A DNA stretch of 64,000 nt from Erythroxylum novogranatense (lineage: Eukaryota; Streptophyta; Magnoliopsida; Malpighiales; Erythroxylaceae): assembly GCA_029891385.1 (NCBI GenBank), contig CM057228.1:66098523-66162522 (forward strand), read 5' to 3'. Under the pieces are notes generated by a model. The model did no database searches, was not told where the DNA came from, and saw only the letters and a list, made by a program, of their open reading frames with translations. This document shows positions 1 through 63,247 of the stretch, in pieces (positions within the stretch are counted from its first letter, which is position 1; every line of letters starts with the position of its first letter). Position numbers and translations under genes: made by a program.

Positions 1-2507
1 TACGGAGAAGTTCTCAAGGTTGTGTCGATTAGTTGTCAGAAATACCTATTCGATAATTGAAAAAAAATGTGATTTAGTACATAGAAGATCCATATTTGGT
101 TGATCATGTAAGGTATGACAGGAATGGAAGATCATGAATTGTCGAAAGTGATCGTATGGAAGTATTAATAATAGCTAAAACATCATTGATGAACATAGTC
201 ATTTGACAAAGATCATGGGAACTGGGAAGATGATTGAGGGAAGAGATGTTTTATCGAATCATATCGTGTGACTAAAATGTTCCAATTTGAGGAATAAAAC
301 GAAGTGATAGGAATAAGTCGGAACATCATTTAGTGGCTAAGAATGAAAAAAAAATCAAGTGACTGAAGGTTCAAATTGTTGATGGTCTTAATTGTCAGAG
401 ATATGCTTTGATTAGACCTCCAGCTCTGCACTCGTTGTCCTAATGATGTCATTAAAATACGATATAAAGAATTAGACGACAAAAAGAGTCGTTCGTTTTT
501 ATATATTGTGATGATAAGGGGCTAAAAATGATTGAATGTCGATTGATTGGAGAGGTGGATGACCAATGAACTTGATAGGTAGTAGAAGTAATGTGGCAAG
601 GAAGATGAGTGAATTAGGTGAATCCACACCAAAGACATGGGACAAAGCGAGATAGATATAAGGGTCATATATACTGATATTAAAGTGTTACGAAATTCTT
701 ATATTGAGTTAGTGTTGTTGATAAAAGCTGTCTTAGATTCGAAATATGATATACGTGAGTATGTTGAGGAAACATTTATGTGATATGATATTGGTGTTAT
801 CGACACTGGAAGTAAAATTTGTGAGTGTTTCGATTTTAAAAAGGAGGACATTGTTACATGCATCGTTTGTTGAATGATTTGATGATAGGGTGGAAAGTTG
901 TGTGATAATTGAATGATTGTTATGTACTTTTTAAATGAGTAAAGATTGTGTTATGTGAATGAGTGTGTTTTTGAGAAATTGAAAAAAAAAAAAAGAACTA
1001 CGTTTCGCAAAGTGCCTTCGTGCAATTTGATGTTTTCGAATGTGTGAATTTGTGAATGTGAATGTGTCTTGTATGACACAATGTGAGAAACAGTTAAGTT
1101 TTGAAATACACCTTTGGGCATTCCGATTTTTTGAGTATAAATTATGTGTATTATGTGGGTTTAGTGAGGTCCCCTCCGTATGAGTCAGTGCACTGGTCTC
1201 CCTCTGATAGCCTTCTCCCGGCTGCCCGCAAGTGGCTTAGGAGTTTCGATTTCGGACTCCCCTCTATTCACGGCTGCACATGACTATTATGCGGGAATGT
1301 GTAGTACGTTCCGTTAGGATCGAAACCAAACCATTCTGATATGTTTTGTGATTTTTGATTTTGTTTATGTTCGTGATACATTTATATGTGATGCATTCAT
1401 TTGTGAGAACAATTGTAAATTTTTGAGAAATGAGTTTTGAAATCGTAAGAATTTTGGAAATTGATTAAGAAAATTTTGAATGATTTGAAAGGCTTGAGAA
1501 TTAAGTTTGAAATTCTTGCGACTGGGAAATGTTTATAAATGACGAACATTTTTAAGAAAAGATTTTTGCTTATTTTCGAGTATATGTTATCCACGGAGCG
1601 TAAGCTCACCCCCGTCTCATCCCCATCTCCAGGTATTCGAGAAGGAGATCGGATGAAAGAAAGTTAAGACTTGTGTTCAAACTTGTATTTTTTTGTCCTT
1701 TGTACTTTTGGAATTTTGGTACCTAAGTATGGCTTGGAAGGCCATTGTGGTTTGTAAGTTTTTATTTTAGGATGTTTGTGACCTATGAAATATAGTGTAA
1801 TGGATTTATGAAGTTTTATATTTTAGTTGTGTATGATTATGATGATGTAAGTAAACTGTGGGTTGTACATGAGTGAATTGAGATATGGATGTTTCGATGA
1901 TGTTTGAGAATTATTGGAGTGTTAGGTATAGATGTGTGTTTCGCGATATTTGGATTCCGGACGGGGAGTCCGATGACTTTGTGTGATTGGATTTGGTTTA
2001 TAGAAGTGTGTTTTTGCCTTTGCAGATTTTTGGGTTGTATAAGATACAGCCGTTATGCTGTCCGATTTTTGGTAAAAATCGGGTTAAGATAAGAATAAGA
2101 ATAAGAAGTTAGTTTGTTAAAGATAAGTGTTTAGTTCAAAGATGAAATTTTAAGTTATTGCATGATTAAGAAGAATTAAGTGAATTGAAATTTGTGCGAG
2201 GATGAGTTTCCAAAAAGGAAATTGTATGGATTGATTATGATTTGAATGAGTTGGAATAACGAGAAAGAGAACAGAACAGAAACGTATGGAAAGAAAAAAA
2301 AATATCTGGATTTCGGTTTGGCTTAGTCTAAGGTTCCAACGCAACTTTTCGTTTCCTAAGATTTGCGCTTTCGGATGTCGGCATTTGCTTCCATTTCGTT
2401 CCGCTTCGAATTCGAAAAGAATCCGTTCTTCGATTCCTTTCGATCTGTTTGCTTCAGATCCGTTCTTCGCTTTTCGGTTAGATCCGATTCGAGATTGGGT
2501 CCCAACA
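1..2507 (+). repeat. 5' LTR of C1, right-hand 2.5 kb only
   Basis: This aligns base for base with the end of the 3' LTR (6126-8640). It ends GGGTCCCAACA, the partner of the LTR start GGACCCC. It contains the hairpin module at 1157-1332, a splice-acceptor-like CTCCAGG at 1628-1634, and a GGCTTGGAAGGCC palindrome near 1730. The left 2.7 kb of this LTR lies outside the window. Short reading frames here are chance frames within LTR sequence. Confidence 0.88.
1157..1332 (+). other. Predicted multi-hairpin RNA module in C1 5' LTR
   Basis: The arm at 1157-1172 (GGGTTTAGTGAGGTCC) can pair with 1317-1332 (GGATCGAAACCAAACC). Between them are small inverted repeats, among them CAGTGCACTG. The block is more GC-rich than the surrounding LTR and recurs at 7277-7452, 39184-39397, 61807-62027 and, on the other strand, 45070-45286. 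Folding is inferred by eye. Confidence 0.5.
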
Positions 2508-7276: not shown

Positions 7277-7452
7277 GGGTTTGGTGAGGTCCCCTTCGTA
7301 TGAGTCAGTACACTGGTCTCGCTCTGATAGCCTTCTCCCGGCTACCCGTAAGTGGCTTAGGAGTTCCGATTTCGGATTCCCCTTTGTTCACGGCCGCACA
7401 TGGCCGTTATGCGGGAATATGTAGTATGTTCCGTTAGGACCGAAACCAAACC
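7277..7452 (+). other. Predicted multi-hairpin RNA module in C1 3' LTR
   Basis: The closing arms are 7277-7292 (GGGTTTGGTGAGGTCC) and 7437-7452 (GGACCGAAACCAAACC). Internal hairpins include TCCGATTTCGGA (7367-7378) and ACGGCC/GGCCGT around 7392-7409. The left LTR copy has mutated the second hairpin on one side. Confidence 0.5.
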
Positions 7453-11021: not shown

Positions 11022-11023
11022 TT

Positions 11024-11874: not shown

Positions 11875-13061
11875 TGTAACGCCCCACTCCCGTATGACCC
11901 GAACCCGATATCGATGGTGATATCCGAGTCTGTGCCCTGTGAGGGTGGCGTGCTACATCACTCAGTCAAAACTTAGTATTAATTTTTTTTGAAAACATAA
12001 GCATACACTAGCGGAAAATCATTAACATACATAATCACCGGTAAATACAGTGGCCACGGGGGCCCATTTTATAAATACAATTTATTTCAGTCTGTTGACT
12101 TACAAATTGATCTAATCATTAATACAAAAATTCAGAAAAAATACAATTCTATCAGACACTAATGCAGACGCGAACTGATCTTGACCACTTCTCTCACTCA
12201 CAAGCAGATGCTATACGCCCATCGCCTAACGGAGTATTCTTCTGGGTCCTGAAAAATAATTGCAAATTTTGGGTGAGTTTTGCGAACTCAGTGAGCGACC
12301 ATCATCGATGGTTCACCCAGTCACATCACACAATTTGCATACGTCGAACATTATTTCATAATGCACATTCACACTCACATCTACAGAATTCCACATTCAT
12401 ATTGTTCATATTTTATATAAGCATATGAGATTCACTTTCCATTTATTATTTTGCTGTGATCGAGTGCCTAAAATGTCCCTTGTAGGGCTCATTAATAATT
12501 GTCCCTTATCCGTTGGTGGATATAGGGCTCATTAAACGTTGAGCCTGAGGCTCTGAATCACTTATGAGCTCAAGGCTCATTTTCACTCGTTGAGCTTAAA
12601 GCTCTGATCGGTGGCGACTCTGGTCACAACAGCCATTATGTCTCCAAATTCCATTGGCTCAAAGTAATAAATTCTAAAATCATGTATCTAATTTTCCAGT
12701 GCCATTGGATAGTCATTTCCAGTACCGGAAACTCAAATCAGTCCGCCACTTGGTAATTTTTTTGGTCCGGAAAGTTTCCTTAAAATTTTCCGGAAAAATT
12801 TCTAAAATTTCACAAAAATGAAAAACACACAACAATCCACTCCCATTCGATTTTCAAGCACTAAATCATATTTTTTTCACAATAAACACATATGCCAGGA
12901 AAATGTCATGAATGCATGTACAATCATGTGCATATACAAATTTTACAATTTATGTATATATAGAGGCCATATTCTGCGTGACCATGCCGAGACTAGTTTA
13001 CATACTCGTAACCCGTCCCAAATTACTATTTTACCCTTCCCATCGGTGATGGGATGTTACA
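11875..13061 (-). repeat. 3' LTR of A, with a 3.4 kb internal deletion
   Basis: Both ends match the 5' LTR, but the middle is gone: sequence up to 12640 equals 16333-17096 and sequence from 12641 equals 20474-20891. The junction falls in a TGT shared by both breakpoints. The missing part includes the TATA box, the 180-base modules, the palindromic module and the second hairpin array. Confidence 0.88.
12453..12633 (-). other. Predicted hairpin array in A 3' LTR
   Basis: The outer arms (12453-12468 and 12613-12633) can pair. They enclose CCCT-TGT-AGGG (12477-12487), a CCCTTATCC/GGATATAGGG stem (12502-12527), GAGCCTGAGGCTC (12541-12553), ATGAGC/GCTCAT (12564-12580) and GAGCTTAAAGCTC (12592-12604). 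Confidence 0.55.
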
Positions 13062-13077
13062 ACTCTCCCCTCCTAAC
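13062..13077 (-). other. Polypurine tract of A
   Basis: On the minus strand this reads GTTAGGAGGGGAGAGT, directly before the 3' LTR. It is preceded by TTTCGATGACGAAATT, the Tekay/Del-like end phrase also seen in C1. Confidence 0.88.
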
Positions 13078-16000
13078 AAAAATTTCGTCATCGAAATTCA
13101 TTTTTGATACTGAAGGAGGTAGGGGTACTGTTATCTCATACACTCCTCCGTTTCCTATCAATACTCTGTTTAGATATCATTCCTCCCTAATTATGCTCTT
13201 GATGAGTTTCAGAGTATTCAACGCTTTACTTCTAGTCATAATACCACATATATTGTATTATAACAATACTGATCATAAAATCACTCATAATGCCTTAGTC
13301 CCATTTTTGCCATAGTTTTATATGGACCACTTTATGTCACACTTAGCTTCCCCTATTACCTTTGTATCTCATTTCACTACACTTTAGCACAGGTGATACA
13401 CTCAAAGACAAGTCATCTTTTTTTTTAACTTTGTATCGGTATTAGTACACTGAACCTTCACATATTCCTCCATATAGTCACAACTTCGATGTAATCCACC
13501 AAAATTCATTCGTCTTTCAAAACCACTTATTCATATTTTAAAAAATCATTTCACTCACTAACAATAACTCCAAATTTGTTATGGATTTTACTCATAGTGA
13601 TCGACTATTATTGTCGCCTGACGCCTCTAGTGGTATCACCAGGATAGTAATGATTTTACCCGTAGTCACTTTTCCATAACTAATAAGATTTCCTTTTTGC
13701 TCCATTTTTAACTCATCACTATACTCTCTTTATTTCACTAGATTGAGTAACCTGATATCCACGTATGTGGTACTCTGTTATGAAATATTCTATTCGATAC
13801 TATTGATGGAAACATTAGCTTTATTAAGACAGGTCCCTCTGCACAATCCTTTCAATCTTTCTCTACTAATCTGTCTAGTCATAATTATATCTAATATGTT
13901 TCTGTCCACATCATGATTCCACGCTTACGACCCAACTACTACTACAGAAAATGTCAAATCATGTATCTAAATTTAGCTCATGCAGCGATATGTATCTCTA
14001 GGTACATAAAATCACCTTATACATTACAACCCATTCCCTCTTGATCTCGATTGGGAACCTCTATTTTATAGACTAAAAAATCTCCAAATCCAAATGGCAT
14101 ACTTAACGCTATACTTCTTTTGCTTTCATTTATCATTGACGTTGCTTACATCTTTTTCTCTCAAGTATTCAAAATTTCATCTTCATTTGTCAATGTGATC
14201 ATAGTCACTCATTGATATCATGTTACTTGGATCATATTAACCTTTAAGATCATAATCCTATCGGGGTATGGTTAACTCCAATAGATATAACCTCATCTCA
14301 TTGTGCTTATATTTAATTCTTGTAGTTCCTTGAGTAACTAATTCCTCAGTGCAGTAGTATGATTACATGTTATCCCTAATTTTTCATTGAACTTCCTTTT
14401 TCTCGACGAATTTCAGTAGTTCTTTCAATTTCCCGATGATTCCACATTGACTTATGCTAATGTCTGCTCATTTATACCTGTTGCTCCACATATTTCAATC
14501 TATCTTACATAACTTCCTGTGTTGGAAACCCCATCATCAGAGATAATTTGTGGTTCCTAAACATATTTCCACAGCCTATGATATGGACCAAATTTCACCT
14601 CACATTAACTAGAATGTCTCTTCGAATTGCTGAAATCCTCGTAAATAGTTGGATACTTTACATCAACAAAAATATATATACACTCCCGATATCCTTTTCT
14701 AACTCTTATGCTTGAGTCTTTGCTATGGATGTAACTCCAATATTCTCATTTGTTTTGTTTCGATTAGAAGACAGCACATCACAACTTTTTTGGGAGACCT
14801 GTCATCTTATTTCAAAATTCCCTCCGTTGCGTCTATCGGTTCCTTTCTGAAACAAACCCGATTAACTCAAGCGAGGAGCCTTTGACCTCTAGGCAATGGA
14901 AGAATTACCAAATTCTATTGTTGAATTTAAATAAGAGCTTATGATCCCAGCTACTGGTCAAGGAGGACCTGCCTTGATAGACTAAATGACCTGGCTTTCT
15001 GACCCTATCTCAATGTTTTCTTGGTACCAACCTCATTATTTCTAACTCCTTGTCAATCACCTATTGCCCATAAGTACTTATTTGTCATTCGTAATACTTC
15101 AAGAAAATCAATTTCAACATTTCATACTATATCAATTCGTATCATGACTCCTATGGTCAACACATTCTCGATAATAAGGCTCAATGAGGCATTAAGCAAT
15201 TTCATTTACGCAACCACCTTGGTATATACCATCCAAAATCCTTACATCTTATTTTAAAGATGTATTTATGTCATGTCTTCACTTACTCACATTCGCTAAT
15301 GCTACTTACATTTCAATTGATTCTAGATAACCTTTCTATCCTTGTTCCAGCCCATGATTGGGGTTTACCATAGGATCATAACAAAAACTTATTTTTGTAG
15401 GCCAATAACGTGTCTTGCACTTTCTTCATCACCTCTTCGTATACAACATCCCATCATAATCATTGAATTAACATTTTGAGTACATTCACTCTTCTCCTTT
15501 GAGTTATCATCTTTTCCATAATCACATGCATAAATACAATCCAAACCTAAGCGAATTTCTAATTATCTCAATACTAACACATCATGTATCACGTTCCATC
15601 AAATCCAAGTCTATCCCTTCACAGTCATAGGAAAATTTAATCTCACCATTTCTACTTCTTTCTAGCAATATCTTCACTTCTTTATTTCATTCGAAGGTAG
15701 AACAGTATGGTACAATATCGATATCATCTTCCATAATACACACTAACAAAAATATAGTGAAGCTATATCTGCCTTTTTGAACCATGTACTTTTTTTTCTT
15801 CTCATTTCCAATTATCCCCATTTAATCGAACATGTAAATACCTAGTCATCCTGAACTTTTGATCTCACATAGACATATTCTTATGCTAAATCATACTCTT
15901 ATCACTTTTAACCAATATTCTTCTCATGTTCAAATTTGACCTCTCCAGGCTATCGCAAATTGCTTTTTCTTTCAACTCGATTTATATTCATTTTGATATC

Positions 16001-16308
16001 ACTTCTTTCCTAGTTCAACCCACGCCAATGTATTCACATTCATATCATATTCGAGGGTTTATAACCACAGTATAATATGAATATCATTATCCATTTTTTT
16101 CCCATTCCTAATTGCCCATAAACGTTCATTGGCTCATATTCTGACATATCATCACTTTTCTCACACTTAAACACTTAACCCATGCTCATGCATGTAACTC
16201 ATACTCATACCACTCAGACTAGGGATCAGTTGCTATGGTCTACTACGACATGACTTAAATGCATGTAACTTGACCCATGTTTCAGAAAATGCCCATATAA
16301 GTTTGGAC
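13078..16308 (-). mobile_element. Internal region of A, non-coding
   Basis: About 3.2 kb, strongly AT-rich, with no frame showing gag or pol motifs. Parts match D's internal region; for example 14320-14520 pairs with about 34900-35100 in order and orientation, sharing TAACTAATTCCTCA and CTCCACATATTTCAAT. Similar non-coding interiors in separate elements suggest a function in cis, such as packaging, or descent from one ancestor. The longest frames here are not convincing genes. Confidence 0.75.
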
Positions 16309-16326
16309 TTCTGGGCTCTGATACCA
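16309..16326 (-). other. Primer-binding site of A (tRNA-iMet type)
   Basis: On the minus strand it reads TGGTATCAGAGCCCAGAA, six bases inside the 5' LTR end. Thirteen bases match the initiator-tRNA complement. Confidence 0.9.
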
Positions 16327-16908
16327 CCTAAATGTAATGCCACACTCCCGCATGACCCGAACCCGACATCGATGATGATATTCGAGTCCGTGCCCTGTGA
16401 GGGTGGCGTGCTACATCACTCAGTCAAAACTCAGTATAAATTTTTTTTGAAAACATAAGCATACACTAGCGAAAAATCATTAACATATATAATCACCGGT
16501 AAATACAGTGGCCACGGGGGCCCATTTCATAAATACAATTTATTTCAGTTTGTTGACTTACAAATTGACCTAATCATTAATACAAAAATTTAGAAAAATA
16601 CAATTCTATCAGACACTAATGCAGACGCAAACTGATCCCGACCACTTCTCTCACTCACAAGCAGATGCTATATGCCCGTTGCCTAACGGGGTATTCTTTT
16701 AGGTCCTGAAAAATAATTTCAAATTTTGGGTGAGTTTTGCGAACTCAGTGAGTGACCATCATCGATGGTTCACCCAGTCACATCACACAATTTGCATACT
16801 CGAACATTATTTCAAAATGCACATTCACACAGACATCTACAGAATTCCACATTCATATTGTTCATATTTGATATAAGCATATGAGATTCACTTTCCATTT
16901 ATTATTTT

Positions 16909-17089
16909 GTCGTGATCGAGTACCTAAACTGTCCCTTGTAGGGCTCATTAATAACTGTCCCTTATCCGTTGGTGGATACAGGGCTCATTAAACATTGAGC
17001 CTAAGGCTCTGAATCACTTATGAGCTCAAGGCTCATTTTCACTCGTTGAGCTTAAAACTCTGATCGGTGGCGACTCTGGTCACAACAGC
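16909..17089 (-). other. Predicted hairpin array 1 in A 5' LTR
   Basis: It corresponds to 12453-12633, with the outer arms CGTGATCGAGTACC and GGCGACTCTGGTCACAAC. It encloses the same five hairpins; the GAGCCTAAGGCTC and GAGCTTAAAACTC versions each carry one loop or stem change. Confidence 0.55.
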
Positions 17090-17264
17090 CATTATGTTTC
17101 ATGCAACACTCAAGCATATCACAGTTATTTCAAATTTTCACATTCAAAAGTACCAAATGATTGTTATCACATAAGTATAAGGCATTTTGCCTTTCACTCA
17201 ATCAAGGAGATCAAATCAAATGCATATGAAATGCGTATGTGACATTTTTCCAATTTATTACGGT

Positions 17265-17395
17265 GTTGTGACTGAGCACCTAAAATTGTCCCAATATGGA
17301 CGCATTAATCATTGAGCCTGAGGCTCTGAATCACTTTGGGCTCAAGGCCCAAATACATTGAGCTTTTAGCTCTCGGTGGCTACTCCGGTCACAAC
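17265..17395 (-). other. Predicted hairpin array 2 in A 5' LTR
   Basis: The outer arms are GTTGTGACTGAGCACC and GGTGGCTACTCCGGTCACAA. They enclose GTCC/GGAC (17288-17301), GAGCCTGAGGCTC (17314-17326), TTTGGGC/GCCCAAA (17335-17353) and GAGCTTTTAGCTC (17360-17372). It is a tandem, diverged duplicate of array 1. Confidence 0.55.
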
Positions 17396-18315
17396 TGTCA
17401 TTAACTGTTCATCCATTCATGCATGGAATGCATATGTCGCAATAAGGCAATATCACCCATCACAATCATTTCCAAATCATCACATTCGAACAATCACATT
17501 AAATCACACAAATAACACTTCAATGTCATACTCTCCCAATACATCGGACCTTCTGTCCGGAATCCATAATCATAACACAATCCCACCATTATTCACCACA
17601 GAATTATAAGTAAAAAATAATTGAGGAACCGTCTAGGTCACTCACCAATAGCTTCCGAGATAATGCCTAGAAGTCTCGGCAATGTCGGTGGGCTGACGTT
17701 CCAAACGCGCCTCTATAACAAGTCAAACACACATATATTACACATTGTCCAATCAGAAACATTTAATAATGCACATGTAGCAATTTAAAATGTGTACAAT
17801 GCATGTTCGTGACATTCCCAGCACTATTCCAAAATTCCCATCACAATATTTTCCACTAAATTTTAGAAACTCATTGACACCGAAATCACTCTATTCGGAC
17901 CTCTATAGGTCCAATTATTGCTAAAACCGAGACTGTACACTATACCCAATTTCACTCCAGAAATTGAACATCTTAGGGACTAAATAGAAATTTTATTCCT
18001 TCAGATAACTTGTAGCCCCATGTCTCTAGTTTAATAAGGAGCAAGAATCACCTCATTTGGATCTCTACAGATCGAGATATCACCAAAATGCTGAAGTATG
18101 TTTAGACTTTTCCAACCAATCCTCTCACTTTGATCTAATCAATATTTTTCAATTTAATCTTAAAATCCATAAATTTTCATGGAGAGGTAGAGGATTGTCT
18201 TGGGAATCCAAAGCTTAAAAAATCAGATCAATCGGAGGTCGGATGGAAAAGTTATAAGCAAAAGAGTGGAGAGAGGTCAGGTCAGGAAAACATGACTACT
18301 AATGCATGTAAAAAT

Positions 18316-18370
18316 TACATGCATCAGTCGACTAATCGAAGACCTCCTAGTCGACTAAGTCATCTACAGT
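18316..18370 (-). other. Palindromic module in A 5' LTR (GTCGAC type)
   Basis: Two AGTCGACTA palindromes (near 18327 and 18351) lie in a short insert next to an ATGCATGTAA/TTACATGCAT inverted repeat. The flanks are conserved with F, C2 and C3, whose inserts at this site are different palindromes. Confidence 0.6.
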
Positions 18371-20345
18371 GGTTAACCTGGAAAACTCTGGTACCCAACT
18401 TCCCCAATTCATAACTTCTTACTCAGAACTCCAAATTGAACAAACTTGGTATCAATGGAAAGCTAAAAGAAAACTCTACAAATTCTATGAAGAGATTAAG
18501 AACCAGATCTACCTCTAAAACCACCTCAAAGTATCTGTCAAATAAACATCATCCTACACAATGACAGAAACTCTAAACAATATAATTCTTTACTCCATTG
18601 TCTATAAATCACAAATGAGGTCTCATTGGAAAGATCACAGAAAATCCTACAAGTTTGATGAGGGGCTTGAGTGTCAAAAATTTAATCAAAGCCACTGCCT
18701 TCACATTAACATTCACAACAGTACAAAACAGTACAACATTTTTCCAAAAATCATAACTTTCCATCCCCATTGCCAAAAATTCCAAGTTTTATATCAATCA
18801 AAAGAGCAAAACATATTCCACAACTTTCATGCACAACTTGGAAGCAAATTCAACCTCTAAACAAATCACATTCTCAATCAAATTTTCTGCCCATATAAGT
18901 CATTCTCAACAGTAACACAATCTTCCAAAAATCATAACTTCCTATCCCATTATCGAAAAATTACATACTCTATATCACTGAAAATATCAGGCAACATACT
19001 ACAATTCTCATGAAGGACTTAAAATCAAATTCCATCTCTAACTAGATCAAATTCTCCCATTATTGTGGTTGTCCTGTTAAAGAGTGTTAAGACAGCATAG
19101 AACCTAAACCATATCCAAACTTTAAAAATTCATAACTTACAATCCCTACATCCAAAATTCGTATATTATACCTCATTACAAATCTAAAACATTCCTCTAC
19201 AACTTTGCATAAGATCACTTGAGCTAATTTTAACCACAAAAGTCCAAAATTAGCTTAAGAACACAGTAACCACAAAATCCATACTTAGAGACATTACACA
19301 CGCCAAAACACATTAATACATCAATTACCATCCGAAAATAATCAAGCCATAACTTTCAACCTACATATAAAAAAATCATACTTAGTGGCGATAGAAAGCT
19401 AACAAGAAAATATTCAACTTTCATGAAGACCAAATTCACAAAAGCAGTCTACTTTAGCCTAGAAAAATTTCCAAAGTTTCTGTTCATAAATCTTTCAATG
19501 CTAAAAGCACCACTGTTCACCCTGCACACATATCTTACTTTCAAAGCAAAATTCCACCCCTTTCAAGCCACAATTGGACAGAAATTCTTTCATAAGAATT
19601 CTAGCCAAATTTCTCAAGTTTAAGTCAAGCTAAACCTAAACTCAATAGCATAACCATATCAAAAGTTATGGCCAAAAACCTGAAACATACTCAAGGTAAA
19701 ATTTCCAGATTTAATACCTAACTCTACTCCTTTCATTCTAACACCACTCCTACATCAATAAGCATCCACTTTAGCTAAGAAATCAGCCACAAGTTCATCA
19801 AGACATTCACTTGAATAAATAGTCACAAATTGGCAGCACACACTCACAAGTTTCTTACTTTAATTACCACTTATCTATCATCATCAAAACCCATCCAAAA
19901 CACTAAATTCACATACTTCACCTACCATGTAATTTATCCTTACACAAACATAAACTTATACCCATTCAATCAACACATAAACTTCATGAAATTAATGCAC
20001 AATAAAGCACAATAAATGCTTCTAACTACTAAATTAAGAACATATAACTTAGTTCTCACCTAAACAAGCTCCAAAGCTTCAATCTTCCAAGTTTTTCCAA
20101 AATTCCTCTACCTCACTTCATATACACGACACTCTCCATTTTTAAGGGAAATAGGAGGCTTAAGCTTGGATTTGTGTGTGAAGAAAGAAGGAGCAAGCAA
20201 GTAAACAAGAAAATTCTTTGTAGGGTGGAAGAAGAACCAACGAAGAAGCAAGGGGAAGAAGCCACGAAGAAGAGAAGAAAGAATCCCTAAAATCAAACTC
20301 CAAAAGCCTTTGAAAGACAAGTGTCATGGAAGCTTGAAAAAGGTA

Positions 20346-20358
20346 GGATATTTATACA
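20346..20358 (-). promoter_or_regulatory. TATA box of the A 5' LTR
   Basis: On the minus strand this reads TGTATAAATATCC, about 535 bases into the LTR, followed by a pyrimidine-rich segment. If used, nearly 4 kb of this LTR is transcribed leader, so the hairpin arrays would be in RNA. Confidence 0.6.
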
Positions 20359-20891
20359 ACACTTAAGTATAAGACTAAGTAGGCAAGTGACATGTGTCAC
20401 TTGCCACTTGTCTTATTTTTAAGCCCTCATTAATTCATTTCCAATAACAATTCAATTTATAGTCCAATTTTGTCTCCAAATTCCAATGGCTCAAAGTAAT
20501 AAATTCTAAAATCATGTATCTAATTTTCTAGTGCCATTGGACAGTCATTTCCAGTACCAGAAACCCAAATCAGTCCACCACTTGCTAATTTTTTCGATCC
20601 AGAAAGTTTTCCCAAAATTTTCCAGAAAAATTTCTAAAATTCCACAAAAATGAAAAACATACAACAATCCACTCCCATTCGATTTTTAAGCACTAAATCA
20701 TTTTTTTCACAACAAACACATATGCCAAAAAAATGTCATAAATGCATGTACAATCATGTGCATATACAAATTTTACAATTTATGTATATATAGAGGTCAT
20801 ATTCTGCATAACCATGCCGAGACTAGTTTACACACTTATAGCCCATCCCAAATTACTATTTTACCCTTCCCATCGGTGATGAGATGTTACA

Positions 20892-23413: not shown

Positions 23414-23561
23414 TCATGTGAAACACTTGCACGATGTGTTTGAACTTTTAAGAGAAAATAAGCTTTATGCCAATTTAGAAAAATGTTCCTTTTGCATAGA
23501 TACTCTTGTGTTTCTTGGTTTTATTGTAGGTGCTAAAGGAATTTAAGTTGATGAAGAGAAA

Positions 23562-25417: not shown

Positions 25418-25431
25418 GAGGAGGGAGGGAA
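25418..25431 (+). other. Polypurine tract of B
   Basis: GAGGAGGGAGGGAA ends directly before TGATGGG at 25432. It also encodes the EEGGN of the integrase tail. Confidence 0.85.
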
Positions 25432-26483: not shown

Positions 26484-26488
26484 ATAAA
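26484..26488. repeat. Target-site duplication of B, right copy (ATAAA)
   Basis: Differs from the left copy ATAAC by its last base. Confidence 0.75.
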
Positions 26489-28690
<2,202 letters not shown>

Positions 28691-28706
28691 TTTCTCTCCC
28701 TCTTAA
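28691..28706 (-). other. Polypurine tract of D
   Basis: On the minus strand this is TTAAGAGGGAGAGAAA, directly before TGTTGGGCTC. The preceding TTTTGAGGACGATATT is the same end phrase as in C1 and A. Confidence 0.88.
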
Positions 28707-29720
28707 AAGAATATCGTCCTCAAAATTCTTACCTGACTGATCTAGGGGTAGGGGATGCTTCCTCTTATGCTCCACCTTTTTTCATTTAACTTCATCACTC
28801 AAATAATTTCTTTCAAATGACTCTAGTTAACGGATTCAATCAATCCATACATGACTTATTCAAATATCACACTATCTTTTCTGTTTCCTCAATATACTTC
28901 AGATTACTCACAATTTTTCACTTCCTGTGTTGATAACATCAATATCATATCATATCAATATTCTTAACATACTCTCATATATCACATTATGTATTTAATA
29001 CATCTTTCATCAGTAGCACTTCTCATAACTATTTCATCCAGACCTATTCATGTCGGGCTTAACTAATCCTTCTTCCTAGCCTGAGCACACCTTAGCACGG
29101 TGATACTGTTAGAGATACTCTTAGAGATAATTTATCTTTCACTAAATAATTCATATCACTACAGTGTCAATACACTTAACTCCTATGTCTATTCTTACTA
29201 TATTCCATGTCTTTGGAGTTGATCCACCTAATTCATTCATCTTTCTTGAATCACTTAATTTCTAATATCGATCAATTTCACCTATCAGTAATATCTCCAA
29301 TTCTAGCCTTCAACAATTTTTAGGCCTTAATCATCACAATACAAAAGCGAATGACTCTTTCTATCATCTAACTCCTCATACAATATTATAATTGAAATCA
29401 CTATGATGATTGTTATGCTTGAAGTCAAATAGAACTATACATTGTTCTATCACCTTTATCAATCATATATACTTCTTATTTTAATCACAACGTATCATTT
29501 TTCCTATTTGAACTCAAAATTCAGATCTATTTTCAAACTCTCAATAAGAGTCACGATTTTTGAATCCTCAATTTAGGCTTGGTTAATCCTTCCATGTGAT
29601 ACTGATCTTCAATTCCATAGCAATTAGTACTTTTATTTGACTAAAATTCAACTCCATATTTTATGCTCCCTTTTGCACTAGATATGATAACCTCAAAATC
29701 TGAATTTGTGCTTCACTACT
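28707..29720 (-). mobile_element. D internal region, PPT-proximal part
   Basis: Non-coding, AT-rich. The part at 28880-29000 is homologous to the sequence carried inside the C1 LTR. F is inserted at its right edge. Confidence 0.75.
29716..29720. repeat. Target-site duplication of F, left copy (CTACT)
   Basis: CTACT is repeated at 34288-34292. Confidence 0.88.
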
Positions 29721-32486
29721 TGTAACATCCCATCTCCGATGGGAAGGGTATTTTAGTAAATTGGGACGGGGACGGGTTAGGAGTATTAAATTATAACTCG
29801 GCATGAACATATGTCATGCAGCCTCTATAAATGGTGAGTTTTGCAGTGCATATAGTCATACATGCATTCATGACATTTCCCGGCATAAGTGTCTAATTGT
29901 GATCTTTTGTGAAATTGGTGTGATAATGGGGGATTTGGAAAATTATTTGGAGTGCGCCATAGAGTGTTTTACATTTTTAGAGATTTATGAGAATTTTTCT
30001 GGAATTATCCGGAGAAAATTCCCGGACCGGCAAAATCGCCGGTAAATGGCCTAAATGTGTTTTTGTAGTGAAAGTGTGGTTTTCGTGTTTAAAAAATTAT
30101 TGGGAGTGGACTGTCTTATGTTTTACAATTTTGGGCAATTTAGGTAATTTTCAAAAAATGATTCGAAAATTTCTGAAATTTTGACCGGAAAAAGTCGCCA
30201 ATTGGCAAACCGGTCGATTTTCGGTAGCGAAAATTGCTACCCAATGGCACTGTATTATTGGGGGTATTATTTTTGGGATTGTAATTAGGGCCAGTAGAAT
30301 TGAATAGGTCAAATTAAGGAAATCCTATTAAATATTTTCTCTTATCCTTATTTTATTGTTTTTTTTGATAAGTGCCAAATGTCCAACGAATTTATTGCAT
30401 TTGTCTTTTCCTAGCTATTGTTTTCGGTTACTTAAAGGAAAGAAGGAAAATCCTTCCTCCACCGAAACTTCACCTTCCCTTCTTCTCCATTTGTTGTTCT
30501 TTAGGTTTCTTAGTGTTTAGCTCTCCCTTCCTCTTTGTTCCTTCTAAAAGGGCCAAGCATACACTCTTTTCTTTTTGGCATGATGATATACATGTTTGAT
30601 GTTAGAAGAAAGTAGAGAAAGTGAGAGATTGGTGTGCTTTGAAGTGGAAAGGCTAATTAGGTAAGTTAGTTTAATTATGTTTTTAATGATGCTTAAGTAT
30701 ATGAATTTATGAATCATAGTAGTTAGGAGCTTTTAATGGGAGGTTTGGTATCTTTATTATGATTCTTGATGCATTAAATTGATGACTCATATGGTTTGAA
30801 TTAATGGGTATAAGGTTAGGTTGAATTATTAATTGGAAGTAGTATGTTAGAAGTGGTTTTAGTTTGATTAGTGATGGCTTATTGATGATTGATTTTTACT
30901 TGGAAAGAAAGAATTAAGTGCTGCTAATTTTTGTGTGTTAGCCCTAGTACATGTATGAATGGTATAAGAACTTGATTAAGGTAAGAGTTGTGTTTGCTTT
31001 CTTTCTTTTGGTAGTTAGAAGCATGCATGGGATTCCATTGAGCATGTATGTGATCATGGAAGTGGTAGGTTTGAATGGGTTTAATGTATGCTTGTGTGAA
31101 GGAATTGGTTATGGTAGTTAAAGAATGGGAAGGTGATGTTATTAATGATGTTTATGATGCTTAATACATGGAAACAAAGTATGGAAATTGTGTAGGTATG
31201 TGCTGCCAAAGTTTGGTTAGTTATATAAGTCAATGTTGTGATTAGTTTGTGGTTGAATTAGTAGTATAACTGGATGCTTAGTGAAGTGTTATTGATATTA
31301 GAAGTGATAGGAGTTAGGTTGTAGTTGAAAAGCTGGAAAATGCAATTTGACCTATTGTAATGGTTTGATCATAACTTATTGTGTAGGTGTGAAAATGAGG
31401 TGAGGTTTGTGGCCACTTAAACTTTGGGATGTTGGCTACATTTTTGTGTGAAATAGGTGTTGTCAAATTGTAACTCTAATAGGTTGAAATTTGGCATGGA
31501 AAGTTACTGTTTTATTGCCTATGAACAGTAACCGAAACCTTAACCTATGAGCTTTACTGATTTTTCTAAATTAATTGAGATGGAATTAGGGAGAATGGTC
31601 TTCATGGAAGTTGAGGCATATTGAGTTAGCTTTCCATTTCCACTGATCTTGCTAAGTTTCGAGTTGTATATTGGGAGATATGAACTGATTCCTATGGACT
31701 GGTTTTGGGCATGTTGATGAAACCTAGCTTAAGTGTCTGACTTGTGAGTATTCTGCTTGGAAGCAATTTTAGCCATTTTTTTGGACTGAATTGGTGTGAG
31801 TGATCTTCTGCAAAGTTGAAGAGGAAAATATTATCTTGAAAATGAGATATGGCATATAATTTTTAGAGGTCAGAGTTGGGAGTTATGATTTTTGCAAAAA
31901 CTGATCCTGCATTAGGTTAGGAATTGTTGATCATGCCAGTAACTTGCATGACAGTTTTGAAATGGTTAGAAATGAAATTGGAAATTGAGTTCTTCATGAA
32001 AATTGAAGTTTGAGGATTTATCTTTACAGGGATATAAAGTTCAGATTTTTCTGACTTGTGTACAGGGAGTTATGCTTGTTATAAGTTTACTGCTCAAATT
32101 GAATGATTTCAGGGACAGCAACATTGAGTGAATTAATTGACTTGTTTAGCAATGGAATTTGATTTTGGGTTGTTCATGAAAGTTGTAGATGACATTATGA
32201 ACTTATTGAGCATATTTATGTGGTAATTTTTTGCTGAAGAATCAGAGAGTTAAGGAATTTGTAATGTACTGTTCTGTTTTAATGGGATTTGAGTAGGCAG
32301 TAGCTTTGAAGGGAATTTTGACACCCTTAAGGGTGAAATTGATTTTTATGGTCTTCTTGAGAATTGTAGAGGGTTTCATGATCTTTCCAACGAGATATAG
32401 TTGAAAATTTTCTGAATTGTGTGCAATGAATTATTGGTGTTGAAAAATTGGATTGGAAATTAGGAAAAAAAAAAGGGAAATGGAAT

Positions 32487-32625
32487 CACGCCCGGTCACT
32501 AGGGCGACGCGTCGCCTAGTGATGGCATCAGAAGGGCGCGTCGCTAGGCGACGACGTCGCCTAGCGATTGACGAGCAGTTTCAGTCAGCCCCACTGGGGC
32601 GAGACGTCGCCCCCAGCGAGGCTGG
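32487..32625 (+). other. Palindromic module in F (GGCGACG type)
   Basis: It contains GGCGACGCGTCGCC, then AGGCGACGACGTCGCCT, then GGGGCGAGACGTCGCCCC, a series of near-perfect CpG-rich palindromes in an otherwise AT-rich LTR. A poly-A run precedes it and a T-rich run follows. Confidence 0.7.
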
Positions 32626-33469
32626 ACTTTTTTTCTTTTCTTATTTTTATTTTATTATTTTTAATTGGTAATTTTTGATTTCATGCTTCCTTTGTCAATT
32701 TCTTTTCCGTCCGACTTCCGATTGACCTGATTCTTGAGGCATCGGATTCGTAGAATATTTAATTTCATTTTGTGAGAAATTGGGAATTTTTGGACGGAAA
32801 ATTGACGTGGCCCCGGGTAGCGGAGCCTTTAATCACTGTTTTGTTTAATTGGGGACCTATAGAGGTCCGAATTGTGCACCGTCAGCGCCAATAGGTTTCT
32901 AATTTTTAGACGAATTTTGTTATGGGGAAATTTGGATTTAGGGCCGGAAAATTCATGAACATGCATATTTCACCTATATGTGCACAAATGGCATCGGTAG
33001 TGACTCGTTCTTTCTCTGTTTCTTATAGAGGCCCAAGTGGAGCGTCGTCCGACCGACGGGGCGGAAACTTCCCGGCATTAGCTCGGAAGTAATAGGTGAG
33101 TAACCTAGTTGGTTTCTCAACCTTATGTGTTTATTACTTATATGCATTGATTGCCATGAGGATGCAAGGATGGATATATGTAATTGATTGATTTGATTGA
33201 TTTCGAACCATGGTTGTTCGAAATATTAGATTGTGATATTGAAGTGCCAATGAGAATAAGTGCGTGAGATTACATTAGTAAATTGAATTGTAAATGTGGT
33301 AGTGAAACGAAAGGTAAATGCATGGGAATGAAATACCGGACTAAAAGTCCGAGGACATTGGAAAATGATCGAAAATAGTAATTAATTGGAATTGGAAATA
33401 AAAATGCGATAATTGGATATTGGAAAATGACATGTGCATTCATGCATAGTAAATGATTAGATAATGGCA

Positions 33470-33648
33470 GTTGTGACCGGTGTCGCCACCGATTTCAGAG
33501 CTTTAAGCTCAACGCACAGGGCCTCGTGCCCAACGTATTCCGAGCCTCGACTCGATGATCAGGGCTATGCCCAACGTTTCAGGGCTTTAAGCCTAATGTT
33601 TCAGAGCCAATGGCTCAACGTATATGAGCTCAGGCGCACGGTCACAAC
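33470..33648 (+). other. Predicted hairpin array in F, six arms and a closing stem
   Basis: The outer arms GTTGTGACCGGTGTCGCC (33470-33487) and GGCGCACGGTCACAAC (33633-33648) pair over most of their length. Between them come GAGCTTTAAGCTC, GGGC/GCCC (CTCGT loop), CGAG/CTCG, GGGC-TAT-GCCC, GGCTTTAAGCC and GAGCC-AAT-GGCTC, most followed by AACG or AATG, then TGAGCTCA. The spacing is about 22-24 bases per unit. Confidence 0.6.
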
Positions 33649-34287
33649 AACGAAAGAAAATGGAAGAGTCACATGCACACTGCATAAATGAATGTTTAAT
33701 GTGAATTGTGTGAAAGGTTTATTGCCTTATAAAATGTGAAATTGAGTGCCTGTGATTTCTTGTTTATGATATATATACAATATTGTGTGATTGTGTGGAT
33801 ATGCATGAGTTAGGTGAACCATCGATGATGGTTTCTTACTGAGTTCGCAAACTCACCCAACATTGCATCTATTTTTCAGGAAATGGAGAGTACCCCGTTG
33901 GACACACGGGAGTACGTCTACTGCTAGCAAGACAGAGTATCGGGTCGGGATTAGTGTCGTCCGTATCTGCATTCGTGTATTAATTTGATATTTAGTAGGC
34001 CCAATTGTTTACATGGAATTGTATAAAGTGACTGAGCACTAATGAGTGCTAATAATGATTAAAATTGTTTTATCAGTGAAATGGTTTTACTCTTTGAAAG
34101 TGTTTTGTTATAATTGGGCCAAGTCAATGTTTGTTTTGCGCACTCTAATGTTTTTGAAAGAAAAAAAATGTCATACGATTTTTGTTAATAAGGTAATGAA
34201 TGTTCTAGTACGCCACCCTCGCGGGTCACGGGCTCGGATATCACCATGGATATCGGGTTCGGGTCTCGTCGGGAGTGGGGTGCTACA

Positions 34288-34292
34288 CTACT
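34288..34292. repeat. Target-site duplication of F, right copy (CTACT)
   Basis: Perfect copy of 29716-29720. Confidence 0.88.
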
Positions 34293-36140: not shown

Positions 36141-37159
36141 AAATTTGAAAATTGCCCCTATGAGATCTCAATTCTAGGCTTTGAATAGTGAGAGTGTTAA
36201 ATTTTAGGGAATTGCAAGTCTGACTTTTTGGGATGAATAGTAATAGAGAGTTGACTTTTTGATCTGAAATCTTTGTGAATTTTTATGGGTTAATGTAGGC
36301 AGAATTTGATAAAATAATCTTCATGAAAATTGTAGCTTCTATTGATAGCTTTCTATCTCTGTGAAGTATGTCATTTTTCGATATCGGGATTGAAAGGTTA
36401 TTTTGCTTTGTTTTTAAAAATGCTATTAAGGGTAAGTTTGTGTGTACTGTGCTTTGAGGCAAATTTTATACTGATGTGGTTTGAATTGGATCAAGTAGCC
36501 TTATTGAAAGTTGTAAAGGAAGTTTATATCTTTTCGATAATGTATAATATGCTATTTTTGATTGTGAAAATTGAAAGATGTGAAATTGTGAAGTTGGACG
36601 TGGTTTAGGGTGAATGTTTAGGAGCAGAAGCTTTGATTGAAAAATTGACCTAGTTAGAGGTTGAAATTGCCTTTAAGTGCTGCATGAAAGTTTTAGATTA
36701 TGTTTTGATCTTTCCATTTATGTAAAGTATGGAATTTTTTTGACCATGTAATAGGAAGTTTTTAAAAGTTTATGTTACTGTTTGGTATGATCACTAGTGG
36801 ACAAAAACTTCAAAGTGGTTTTTGACTCCATTAAAGGTCAAATTGATTTTTCAGTCCTGCATGAAAGTTTTAGGCTGCATTTTGATCTTTTCATTGATAT
36901 AAATTATGACATTTTTGGACCTTGGAGCTAAAAGATAGAAATTTTCAAAGTTATGTTACTGCTTAGGGTAACATACATTGGACTGAAATTTTGAGTAAGA
37001 TTTTGACCCCATTAGAGAAGGATTTGGTTTTTAAGTTCTTCATGGAAGTTGTAGAGATTCCTCTTAGCTTTCTTTTGATACTAAGTTTGTAAATTTTAGA
37101 CTCTTGAGTCAAAATTTGTGAGATTTTGAAGTTAGGCTTTTGAAAAAAAATCAGAAGGG

Positions 37160-37385
37160 AGGTAGCTCGTGAGTGCGACCGCCTCGCGGTCGCTAAGCGT
37201 CGCGACCGCGAGGGCCGCATTTTGGTGTAGCCTCGCGATCGCGAGGCGTCGCGATCGCGAGTGCCCCATTTTGAAGCACTCCTCGATGCCTCGTGATCAC
37301 GAGTGCCCCATTTTGAAGCACTCCTCGCGACGTCTACGTGTCGTGCGAGGGCGACTTAGTCCCCTCCCGACCTCCTCGTGAGGGT
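37160..37385 (+). other. Palindromic module in C2 (CTCGCGATCGCGAG type)
   Basis: The longest module in the window: CCTCGCGGTCGC, GCGTCGCGACCGCGAG, CCTCGCGATCGCGAGG, CGTCGCGATCGCGAG, CTCGTGATCACGAG, with the phrase TGCCCCATTTTGAAGCACTC occurring twice between them. It is extremely CpG-rich against an AT-rich background. Confidence 0.75.
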
Positions 37386-39183: not shown

Positions 39184-39397
39184 GGGTTTGGTTAGGTCCT
39201 ATAAGATGTCAAGTTCACTTGTCAATAGGCTTCTCCAGCCTGCCCGCTAGTGGCATGGAGTTCCTTTAAGGACTCTCATGAGTTCACAGCTACACAGGAC
39301 CGCTATGCGGGAATGTGTAGTACGTTCTGTTTACGGCTATATAGGACCGCTATGTGGGAATGTGTAGTACGTTCTATTTTCTGGACCGACCCAAACC
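39184..39397 (+). other. Predicted hairpin module in C2, with duplicated arm
   Basis: The outer arms GGGTTTGGTTAGGTCC and GGACCGACCCAAACC pair. Inside, CTACACA/TGTGTAG (39290-39320) holds an inner CCGC-TAT-GCGG. A 53-base tandem duplicate (39337-39367) has CTATATA/TGTGTAG and CCGC/GTGG, which still pair through G-U. Confidence 0.6.
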
Positions 39398-45069: not shown

Positions 45070-45286
45070 GGTTTGGGTGGATCCAAAACAGAACATATTA
45101 GACATTTTCCATAAGGGTCCTATGTAGTCGTGAACAAAACTTACTAATGCAATCCCACATAATGGTTTTGCGTAGTCGTGAACTTATGGGAGTCCATGAA
45201 GGAGCTCCATATCATTAACGGGAAGGCAGGAGAAGCCTTTTGTCAAAGTGCACTTGATTTAACTTAGGAGACGACAACAAACTCAC
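45070..45286 (-). other. Hairpin module in D 5' LTR
   Basis: On the minus strand it carries the C-type module with two tandem TTCACGACTAC arms and the closing phrase GGATCCACCCAAACC. Pairing is weaker than in C2 and C3. The equivalent part of D's 3' LTR is deleted. Confidence 0.4.
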
Positions 45287-59880: not shown

Positions 59881-61806
59881 CGACCCGATCTAACCCTCTC
59901 TCACTCTTTTGCTTCTAACTTTTTCGTCCGACATCCGATTAACCTGATTTTTAAAGCGTTGGATTCCTAAGGCATTCCTCTACCTCTACATGAAAATTTT
60001 GGATTTTTTTTAGATTAATTTGAAATAGATTGATTGAATCAAATGGAGGGGATTGGTTAAAAGAGTATAAGTTGGGTATTGTTTTGAACATGGTTCAGTC
60101 TTATGAAAAATTCTTGATTTTTGGAGATCCGATTGATCTGATTCTTGCTGAAAAATAAAATAGAACATGGGGCTACAAGTCATATGAAGGAATTAAATTT
60201 CAATTTAGCCCTTAAGATTTTCAATTTCTGAATCAAAATCAGTTTTAAATGTTCAGTCTTGGATTAGTAAGAGTTGAAAGTATTTTTACCATAACTTTTG
60301 CTCTAGTCATCCAAATGAGGGGATTCTTGATTTAAATGAAACTAGAGAAATAGGGCTACAAATGTTCTGAAGGACTCGAGTTTCAATTTAGTCTTTAAGA
60401 ATGTCAATTTTTGGATGGAAGTAAATCGCTGGAAAATGTTTTAGCATAATGATAGTTCGAAATGTTTGGAGTATAACTTTTGGTGTAGTACACCAAATTA
60501 AATGATTTTAGCGGCGTAATGAAATTGAGATTATAAAGAACATTTCTCTAGAAGGAAGTTTTACCAAATTCTTTCAATTTGATGATTTGAAAAATGTCCT
60601 AAGTTAAGCATGATTTGATGAATTTTGAGACTTTGTATTATTTTATGATTTTGAGGACTTAATTAGCATGTTAATGTGAGTAATTAACATGTTAAATTGA
60701 GTAAGATCATTTGGAATAAGTTGATTGGAGTAAATTAAATTGAAGTGTTAGAAATTAAAGTGTAAAGAAAGTATAAGGGCAAAATTGGAAGGTTACTTAA
60801 GTTGTTAAGTTATAAGGCATATATGGAGGGGCTTATTAGTCATTTTACACTCTTTAATGACAAGTGAGTGTGGCTGTCGTATAAGGCAAGAGGAAGGCAT
60901 GAAATTAAAAGGGAGGAAGAAAGAAAAGAAGAGACAGAGAGAAGAGGATGGAGATTTCAGATGGGAGAAGAAGAAAGAAGAGAGGAAAGTCTAGGGTTTC
61001 GATTTTCTTGGATTTCAAGAGTGTTTTGAAGTAGATTTCAAGGGGGAAATGAAGAGGAGCTCAAGAGCATTATTTTGAGCCAAGAAAATCCGAAAATGAT
61101 GAAGAATAAAAGGTAAGAGGAATTTTTACTTTGTTAAATTATGAATAGATTTTGGTTTAAATAGCTTGGATATGGTATGGGTTTGTGATTTCTAAGCTCA
61201 ATTTTGGTGATTATGTTTTATGTGGTGTTGAATTTGGATGGTTATGAATTAAGGATTTTTGTCTTGGATTAGGGTATTGAAGTGAGCCAATGGAGAAATT
61301 GAAGCTATGGACAAGTTTCAAGCATGGAAATGAGGTGGGTACCATGTTTATATTTTGATTTATAAGCCAATTATGTGATTTAGAAAAATCAAAAAGAGAA
61401 ATGTTTTGAAAATTATTATTTTCGAATGATTAAATTCGTTAATTTTCAAATGATTTAAGAAATTGATAATGGATTGTTTTCGAATGATTGGATAAATTGC
61501 TAAAATTGTTTTGAATGATTTTGATCAAAATTGATACGATTTTCGCATTCATTGTGTTTAAATGATTTTGATAATTGCAATAATTATGAAATTCTTTGTC
61601 TTCGAATGATTTTGAATAATTTGATGATGTTGCTAAAATATTGCATTCATTGTGTTTGTATGATTAAGAATGTGTTATGTGAATTGGTTTGCTATTGTAA
61701 ATTTTTTAATGTGAATGAGTATGTAATATGATATGATATGAAAGATTGAATTTTTAAACCATGCCTTCCGACAATCCGATTTTCAAGTATGAAATGTGTT
61801 ATGTGA

Positions 61807-62027
61807 GTTTGGTTAGGTCCCATAAGTTTGAGTCAAGTGCACTTGTCTTCTTTTTTATAGACTTCGCCCGCCTACCCGCTAGTGGCACTAGAGCTCCGTT
61901 ACAGACTCCCATAAGTTCACGGCTACACTGGACCGCTATGCGGGAAAGTGTAGTACGTTCTGTTTACGGTTGCACAGGACCGCTATGTGGAAATGTGCAG
62001 TACATTCCGATTTGGACCGACCCAAAC
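61807..62027 (+). other. Predicted hairpin module in C3, with compensatory changes
   Basis: The outer arms GTTTGGTTAGGTCC and GGACCGACCCAAAC pair. Arm 1 has CTACACT (61923-61929) with AGTGTAG (61947-61953) around CCGC-TAT-GCGG; C2 has CTACACA with TGTGTAG. Arm 2 has TGCACA with TGTGCA. Both changes keep pairing. Confidence 0.65.
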
Positions 62028-63247
62028 CATTCTTATGTGCTTATGTGTTTTTGATTTTGTTTATAATGATGCATTCATGTTCTTGATTTGTTCGTGAATT
62101 CTTTGAAATTGAGAAATTTGATAAATAAGCTTTTGATGAATTTTTCTACTGTGAAATGTTTATAAATGGCAAACGCTTTGAAAAATGATTTTTTGCTTAT
62201 TTTTCGATTTATAAACATGATATCCACTAGTTTTTACCTCACCCCCCCCCCCTTTCACCCCCATCTCCAGGTTTCAAGTAGGAGATCGGATGAAAGAAAG
62301 TCAAGGCTTTTGATCGATTTTTGTATAATTTGTAGTTTGTGAAATTTTGGATTTCGATATTGGTTTCTTATATGGCTTGGAATGCCATTAAGGTTTTTGT
62401 AAGCATTTATTTGATGATGTATATATTAATTATGAAATTGTGTATTGAATTGAGTTTTGAATGTGATTGATTGAATTATAGATTTGTATATGGAATAGAA
62501 TAGTGAATTATGGTTATGTATATAAATTGTATATTGATTGTGTTTTGGATTCCGGACGGGAGGCCCGATGATATTGAGAATTGTGAATTATTTGAAGTGC
62601 TATGTATATGAAGATGATTGGTTGTGTTTGTTTATGCTGGGATTTCAGACAGGAGATCCGATGAATTGTGATGATTGAGCTGAAATATTGAAGTGCCTTT
62701 CGTGTATGAATTGTGGATTTTAGAAATATGTGTATTAAGCGTCTTTTGGCAAAAGAAAAATAAGAATTGGTTAAAAAGAAGAATTATGAGATATGTATGA
62801 TTTTGAAGAATAAAATATTTGAGTTTATGGGATTAATAAATTCCAAATGGGAAATTGGAATGAATTTTTAATAAAGATGAATAGAATGAAAGAAAAGAAA
62901 AAAATTTATACCAAATTTTGGAATGGTTTAGTCTAAGGTTTCCAACGCTAGTTTTCCTAAGTTACACGTTCTCGGATGTCGGAAATTTGTTTCAGTTCGA
63001 GTGAACCGTTTGTTTGCTTTGATTTCGCTTTCAGATTCTTTCGCCTTTTATACAATTTGATTTCTTTGACTTTTGCCATATATTTCTGCTTCGGACTCTT
63101 TCGCTTTGAATTTTGTTTCGCCATTTGTTTTGGGCCACTTTCGGTTTTAAGATTCGCTTAATTCGTTTCCGCCGTTTTGTTTTTCGCCAATATGTGTTTT
63201 CGTTTTTTTTTTCGGTTGGGGTCCGGTTCTGAAATCAGGTCCCAACA

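Follow-up and report, generated by a model that had tools for sequence, protein, structure and literature searches.

What holds a ring of short hairpins together while its sequence changes? The question is raised by a 64,000-nt stretch of an Erythroxylum novogranatense contig (CM057228.1), hereafter the window, in which a long terminal repeat (LTR) named F carries, at 33470..33648 on the plus strand, a row of mini-hairpins enclosed by the two arms of a long-range stem. Homologous LTRs belong to a second element, A, and the same array design is present in another LTR family, B, which has no closing-arm sequence in common with the A/F family. The pairing that is kept despite sequence change suggests a folded RNA signal used for the copying of these elements.

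Closed hairpin arrays in two LTR families

F is a solo LTR of 4567 bp (29721..34287, plus strand; ends TGTAACATCC...GGGTGCTACA), with the target-site duplication CTACT at 29716-29720 and 34288-34292. The arms of its array, GTTGTGACCGGTGTCGCC and GGCGCACGGTCACAAC, enclose six mini-hairpins (GAGCU/AGCUC, GGGC/GCCC, CGAG/CUCG, GGGC/GCCC, GGCU/AGCC and GAGCC/GGCUC) separated by linkers that are mostly AACG or AATG, and a seventh hairpin, CGGUG/CACCG, overlaps the 5' closing arm. The LTRs of A are in the opposite orientation in the window, so that the plus strand of F and the minus strand of A have the same sense. They harbour three arrays, all on the minus strand: A1 (12453..12630), A2 (16909..17086) and A3 (17265..17395), the last of which comprises a closing stem and four hairpins. 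The earlier note had located these four arrays at essentially the same positions, and the change between GAGC/GCTC and GGGC/GCCC that it had read from one array to another is confirmed by the A/F alignment.

The hairpins are in clear excess. Counting starts per 180-nt stretch (perfect stem of at least 4, loop of 3-7, at least 3 GC pairs), we found 7 in 180 nt of F, as against a peak of 2-3 in ten dinucleotide shuffles of the window made in 2-kb blocks. Eight further A/F arrays were identified by blastn in 200 kb of the genome picked by position alone (C11 and C4), together with one B-like array. The twelve A/F arrays hold 40 hairpins, the mean of 300 shuffles being 9.0 and the maximum 17, and the count taken array by array gives p<0.01 for seven of them.

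In family B, the LTRs end at 2507, 8640, 40670 and 63247, all with CCCAACA. Four arrays are on the plus strand, namely B1 (1158..1332, in the LTR that ends at 2507 and is followed by a primer-binding site, PBS, at 2512), B2 (7278..7452; arms GGTTTGGTGAGGTCC and GGACCGAAACCAAACC), B3 (39185..39397) and B4 (61806..62028), and one, B5 (45070..45282), is on the minus strand. Their closing arms are GGTTTGGT..AGGTCC with GGACC..ACCAAACC, or near variants, and the hairpins that they enclose differ from those of A/F. Of the two terminal units of B3, one is CTACACA..TGTGTAG and the other has diverged; B4 has CTACACT/AGTGTAG where B3 has CTACACA/TGTGTAG, which is a double change. The closing stem is kept in B1-B4, with one mismatch in B1 and one in B4, and it is lost in B5, whose arm duplex (-5.2) is no better than random.

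The strength of the closing stems sets most of these arrays apart. Closing arms pair with energies of -13.7 to -24.9 kcal/mol within A/F and of -11.7 to -21.0 kcal/mol within B1-B4, and across families, B5 included, with -2.7 to -8.8 kcal/mol, i.e. there is no cross-family match. Of 60,000 random arm pairs drawn from the window, those as strong as the arms of F, A1, A2 and A3 number 0, 2, 29 and 2, and for B1 to B5 the figures are 224, 1, 2, 7 and 10,597; seven of the nine window arrays are thus matched by 0-29 pairs. When 300-nt flanks were included in the folding, the probability of the closing stem was 0.54-1.00 in A1, A3, B2, B3 and B4.

Pairing and sequence change between lineages

Hairpins and long-range stem appear to retain their pairing between lineages while their sequence changes, as the earlier note had proposed for A/F, and family B repeats the pattern. 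In the four A/F arrays of the window, 96% of 125 cells are paired and two pairs are double-changed; one belongs to the closing stem, where F has UA and A has AU. The score of this alignment was reached by 17 of 500 shuffles. The hairpins of the five B arrays of the window have 93.9% of 131 cells paired and five double-changed pairs, a score that none of 500 shuffles reached. The terminal B unit taken alone, in six of the eight window units (both B5 units left out), gave no significant covariation (63/500).

We then extended the alignments to the sampled arrays. The closing stem was aligned for ten of the twelve A/F arrays, L037b and L038 being omitted for indels in their arms: 89.4% of 160 cells are paired, as compared with 24-43% in slid structures, and double changes affect pair 9 (CG/UA), pair 12 (AU/GC/UA) and pair 14 (CG/UA), in eight cells. 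The score was reached by one of 500 shuffles and the number of double-changed cells by three. A set of eight A-type arrays (F, L036b, L037b and L038 omitted, as their hairpin order differs) has 11 double-changed cells (7/500 shuffles), with a score reached by 5/500. RNAalifold, given no structure as input, returned the same 16-pair closing stem from these eight arrays, and 11 of the 13 closing pairs from a 20-row B set described below.

Close copies were collected from the 1.30-Gb assembly containing the window. With the F array as query, 3410 first-look candidates were obtained, of which 41 were scored: the window copy, 39 others at 98-99% and a last one at 92%. For A3, B2 and B4 the candidates numbered 4339, 3341 and 4732, and 40 were scored in each case, the others being at 91-93%, 88-95% and 90-92%, respectively. 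From these, a 23-row A3-like set was made of A3, 20 of its 39 other matches and the sampled arrays L054 and L042, and a 20-row B2-like set of B2, B1 and 18 of the 39 other matches, mostly from the less similar half (B3-B5 omitted). Copies similar to B4 are in neither set, and L057, an array next to the window, is outside all alignments. Covariation, which the earlier note proposed as a test of a selected fold, is present between lineages and not significant or absent among close copies, in which the A3-like set gives pairing reached by 158/500 shuffles, double-changed cells by 84/500 and the score by 44/500, and the B2-like set has no double change at all. Such a null result is expected if most copies are dead and have been decaying since insertion; it also means that the covariation evidence comes from few lineages.

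As for folding energy, the minimum free energy (MFE) fold of F is the wheel as described, with z of -3.86 on the plus strand and -4.44 on the minus strand, and A1 and A3 have z between -3.91 and -4.91 on both strands; over the twelve A/F arrays, the MFE z ranges from -1.2 (L037b) to -6.0 (A1). In a scan with fixed windows (200 nt, 1278 windows, 24 shuffles each), the best values over arrays were -5.19 at 12401-12600 (minus) and -4.80 at 17201-17400 (plus), and other palindrome clusters and one TA run scored about -6.7 to -11. Clusters with z beyond that of the array occur in the same LTRs at 32501-32700, 37101-37300 and 20301-20500, and include GC-rich repeats such as TCGCTAGGCGAC(GAC)GTCGCCTAGCGA. 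Since the antisense strand of F folds equally well, energy cannot separate an RNA fold from palindromic DNA.

That the signal is read in DNA is quite improbable in our view. The array would then be a group of dyads bound by a dimeric protein, or a cruciform, and would act in LTR transcription or recombination. A GRGC..GCYC dyad is indeed found in 26 of the 40 A/F hairpins, and the palindromes fold on both strands. However, the B units carry other dyads, and variable stem positions are mostly still paired (89-96% of cells across the four covariation alignments); besides, separate binding sites need no long-range inverted repeat around the cluster.

Array-bearing elements and the predicted LTR intron

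Element A spans 11875..20891, with the target-site duplication TTTAC at 11870-11874 and 20892-20896. It is on the minus strand because the complement of its PBS (TGGTATCAGAGC) is at 16315-16326 and a polypurine stretch adjoins 13062. Its 5' LTR (16333..20891, 4559 bp) carries A2 and A3 in tandem, so that A3 does not belong to a separate LTR, and its 3' LTR (11875-13061), shortened by about 3.4 kb, carries A1. The possibility that A1 represents a spliced copy was ruled out, as the gap in its LTR has no GT-AG ends. With an internal region of 3271 bp (13062-16332) whose longest sense open reading frame (ORF) is of 57 aa, A is a non-coding element resembling large retrotransposon derivatives (LARDs): PBS and polypurine stretch are present, and there is no coding capacity. 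It is inserted in a Ty3/gypsy element (window 9961-26483) with zinc knuckle, reverse transcriptase (RT), RNaseH and integrase matches and LTRs of about 1.05 kb (95.5%). Pieces at 9751-9960 and 26484-26928 are related to a tandem array of 5.7 copies of a 196-bp unit at 41217-42314.

The orientation of A also makes antisense the TATA box, at about 12410 on the plus strand, that the earlier note had placed upstream of the array. The sense TATA motif of A, TATAAATA, is at 20356-20349, about 3 kb upstream of the array; a GGCAAGTGACACATGTCACTTGCC palindrome sits just upstream of it. In the A 5' LTR, this motif is followed by a pyrimidine-rich stretch and by a 5' splice motif, AG/GTGAGA (the slash standing for the splice point), at 20061. 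F has AG/GTAAGT at 30659, and the position of this motif within the LTR is similar in both (831 for A2, 939 for F). A 3' splice-site motif, TTTTTCAG/G, is found past the array at 16713-16705 in A and at 33872-33880 in F. These motifs predict that the LTRs of A and F contain an intron of about 3.2-3.35 kb whose 3' end is close to the array; in F it would run from GTAAGT to the end of TTTTTCAG (30661..33879, plus strand), and in A from 20059 to 16706. A position of the array in the leader of the RNA is thus plausible, albeit on the other strand of A and downstream of another TATA motif than had been claimed.

The spacing between the array and the 3' splice-site motif is fairly constant. It is 203 nt for A2 and 231 nt for F, and a CTCCAG/GT motif lies 242-304 nt downstream of the B1-B4 arrays. 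Nine sampled arrays, some ends of which are approximate, were compared: in seven, a 3' splice-like motif begins 206-268 nt further on, in one 341 nt, and none was found after the ninth. Two extra hairpin sequences, AACCATCGATGATGGTT and GAGTTCGCAAACTC, are located between the F array and the 3' splice-site motif (33817..33854, plus strand), with near counterparts in A1 and A2.

These observations might be taken to mean that the folds control splicing only, by drawing the distant intron ends together or by hiding sites, and play no part in the genomic RNA afterwards. The near-constant distance would suit such a function, as would the further hairpins adjoining the 3' splice-site motif. We consider it rather improbable, as the intron is predicted from motifs and a structure this complex is unusual in plant introns.

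Very improbable, in our opinion, is a role in translation of the kind known from caulimovirus leaders, with a ribosome shunt or a stop-start reinitiation at the foot of the stem. In pararetrovirus leaders, a small ORF ends a few nucleotides before the stem. Correspondingly, F and A3 have an ORF of four codons, stop included, whose end is 5 nt upstream of the stem; it is also found in L036b, L037b and L054 and is kept in A3-like copies, A1 has a 16-codon ORF ending before the stem, and UAAUG is present in 8 of 12 A/F arrays. Yet the four-codon ORF is in just 5 of the 12, being absent from A1, A2, L036a, L037a, L038, L039 and L042, so that a conserved small ORF just before the stem, as a shunt requires, was not found. 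The B copies have other frames, some 3 kb of leader precede the array, and A codes for no protein. Read by eye, the F array itself stays open for about 73 codons (33464-33690) in the frame of an AUG at 33464 that overlaps a stop (UAAUG). We dropped a coding interpretation, because A1, A3, L042 and L054 have early stops in the frame from this AUG.

Beyond the window, the array is also present in a pol-bearing element. The C11 element has LTRs at 7319-10922 and 27803-31455 (89.4% identical), both with arrays (L037a and L039), a PBS with two mismatches, and matches to RT (25012), RNaseH (25576-26085) and integrase (26574) that end at about 27300. The order of these matches indicates that this array-bearing relative is probably of the Ty3/gypsy type, A itself being devoid of pol; the array is therefore not confined to non-coding elements. 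Within it sits a further, nested element, whose 4.2-kb LTRs (96.2%) carry arrays L037b and L038 and have no polymerase match between them. The 30 kb beside the window hold one more A/F-type array, L057 (about 6613-6800, plus strand), which adjoins the window on the contig and has polymerase matches about 3.7 kb downstream on the same strand; no PBS was found within 1.6 kb. Two sampled arrays diverge in design. L036 (5997-6268, plus), of the A/F type, is enlarged and contains an inner long-range stem, GTGGTATC/GATACCAC, as well as a GGACC/GGTCC hairpin. L052 (6370-6600, plus) represents a third type: one of its hairpins is related to B, and CGTGTATACG and AAACTTCGGTTT hairpins occur in tandem.

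Other searches were less productive. IMG/VR had no match to either of two LTR patterns from A/F or to one from B, and none of the four matches to a polyprotein-piece pattern in this database was confirmed. We took 17 pattern matches in 17 unrelated bacterial contigs as chance (with 18 bases specified in the pattern, about 7-8 matches are expected if base use is even). ARAGORN returned nothing in the window, and the single match of an Rfam scan is the plant small nucleolar RNA R71 at 53600-53705 (minus strand), which exceeds the Rfam gathering score.

A candidate RNA signal and its counterparts

We tentatively favour, while giving it somewhat less than an even chance, the reading that the array is a cis-acting, selected RNA element of the unspliced genomic RNA that serves its export or packaging. 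In long-LTR elements of the Ty3/gypsy type, the long-range stem would close a multi-branched structure in which conserved linkers (TTTCA..AACG in A/F) connect short hairpins into a ring, and separate mini-hairpins may be the working fold in every lineage. As the array is inside the predicted LTR intron, near its 3' end, it would be retained in the unspliced genomic RNA alone. It is tempting to speculate that the fold flags this RNA so that it is exported, or is packaged by Gag, which might act in trans on non-coding partners such as A.

A number of observations speak against this interpretation. Splicing, start site and transcription are all read from motifs. The closing stem has decayed in B5, and with 300-nt flanks its probability is 0.23 in F, 0.09 in B1 and 0 in A2, whose flank extends into the A3 array. 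Hairpin counts are not exceptional in five of the twelve A/F arrays (p of 0.073 for L036b and 0.12-0.44 for L036a, L037a, L038 and L039), the MFE z is just -1.2 and -1.3 for L037b and L038, and fixed windows over the F and B arrays are not extreme, those over F being outside the 45 lowest. Antisense folds are about equally stable, and the sense MFE fold of A1 is not a ring of separate hairpins. In the closing-stem alignment, the number of double-changed pairs is not unusual (233/500 shuffles). The independent lineages are few, the shuffles ignore relatedness, and we have seen above that close copies show no significant covariation. G.U and A.C cells number 53:24 in the B2-like set and 33:43 in the A3-like set, with no strand favoured. 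Lastly, RNAalifold keeps only the first mini-hairpin of the eight A-type arrays and fuses the next two into a longer stem, and its covariation terms are slightly unfavourable (+0.66 and +0.17). With this merging, the support for the closing stem exceeds that for a ring of distinct hairpins, and it shifts a little weight from the RNA element to a turnover of palindromes.

Such a turnover would operate on DNA: tandem duplication of a short unit and template switching in imperfect palindromes, i.e. quasi-palindrome correction during replication or reverse transcription, could generate perfect hairpins and apparent compensation without selection on RNA. We hold it to be unlikely. The units are tandemly related (TTTCA-hairpin-AACG), the LTRs contain other palindrome clusters, some stronger, on both strands, and the outcome for the close copies and the strand-neutral G.U counts are in line with it. 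What it does not readily explain is the matched change in arms 130-270 nt apart, the closed design with another sequence at a similar place in B, and the spacing to the splice motif.

If the array is the selected RNA element that we favour, a fold that persists through sequence turnover would be a concrete candidate for the signal by which partner proteins select gene-less plant LTR elements for packaging. It might partly explain why these LTRs are so long, and would offer a sequence-independent mark for their classification.

Among known systems, LARDs such as Sukkula come closest to A. Their LTRs are of about 4.4 kb and their internal domain of about 3.5 kb, and A compares well, with 4559 and 3271 bp, a non-coding internal domain, a PBS and a polypurine stretch. 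In the LARDs of grasses, RNA structure lies in the internal domain; in contrast, the A/F array is in the LTR, differs by its closed-array shape and is found in a pol-bearing element as well. The earlier note knew of no LTR element with such a fold, and our literature search, which included export and shunt elements, found none described with such an array; this shape, within an LTR and in two families, appears new to us. Conserved folds in non-autonomous plant LTR elements as such are not new, since LARDs and terminal-repeat retrotransposons in miniature (TRIMs) are said to specify well-conserved RNA structures (PMC7215508). Another non-autonomous plant LTR element for which a conserved fold has been claimed is the Cassandra TRIM; its super-hairpin is formed by pairing between the two LTRs, unlike the array, whose fold is local to one LTR. 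Plant pararetrovirus leaders differ in that the small ORF is found in 5 of 12 arrays only, and the array is about 3 kb from the predicted start, near the 3' splice motif.

The closest functional parallel may be found in animals. A mark confined to unspliced RNA would work on the principle by which retroviral RNAs are exported and packaged (PMC5767303). It is possible, albeit doubtful, that the array is a module of a plant LTR intron similar to the Rev response element (RRE) or the constitutive transport element (CTE), recognised by its shape and common to coding and non-coding partners, such that unspliced RNA alone is exported and packaged. If so, two LTR families of one genome would share a shape, either retained or arrived at independently, in spite of their different sequences. 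The retroviral and retroelement export elements belong to animal elements, and the array, for which an export role is conjectural, is likened to them by shape alone: as in the musD transport element (PMC5767303), the RRE of HIV-1 and the RNA transport element of intracisternal A-particles, long-range pairing would organise several stem-loops in the genomic RNA.
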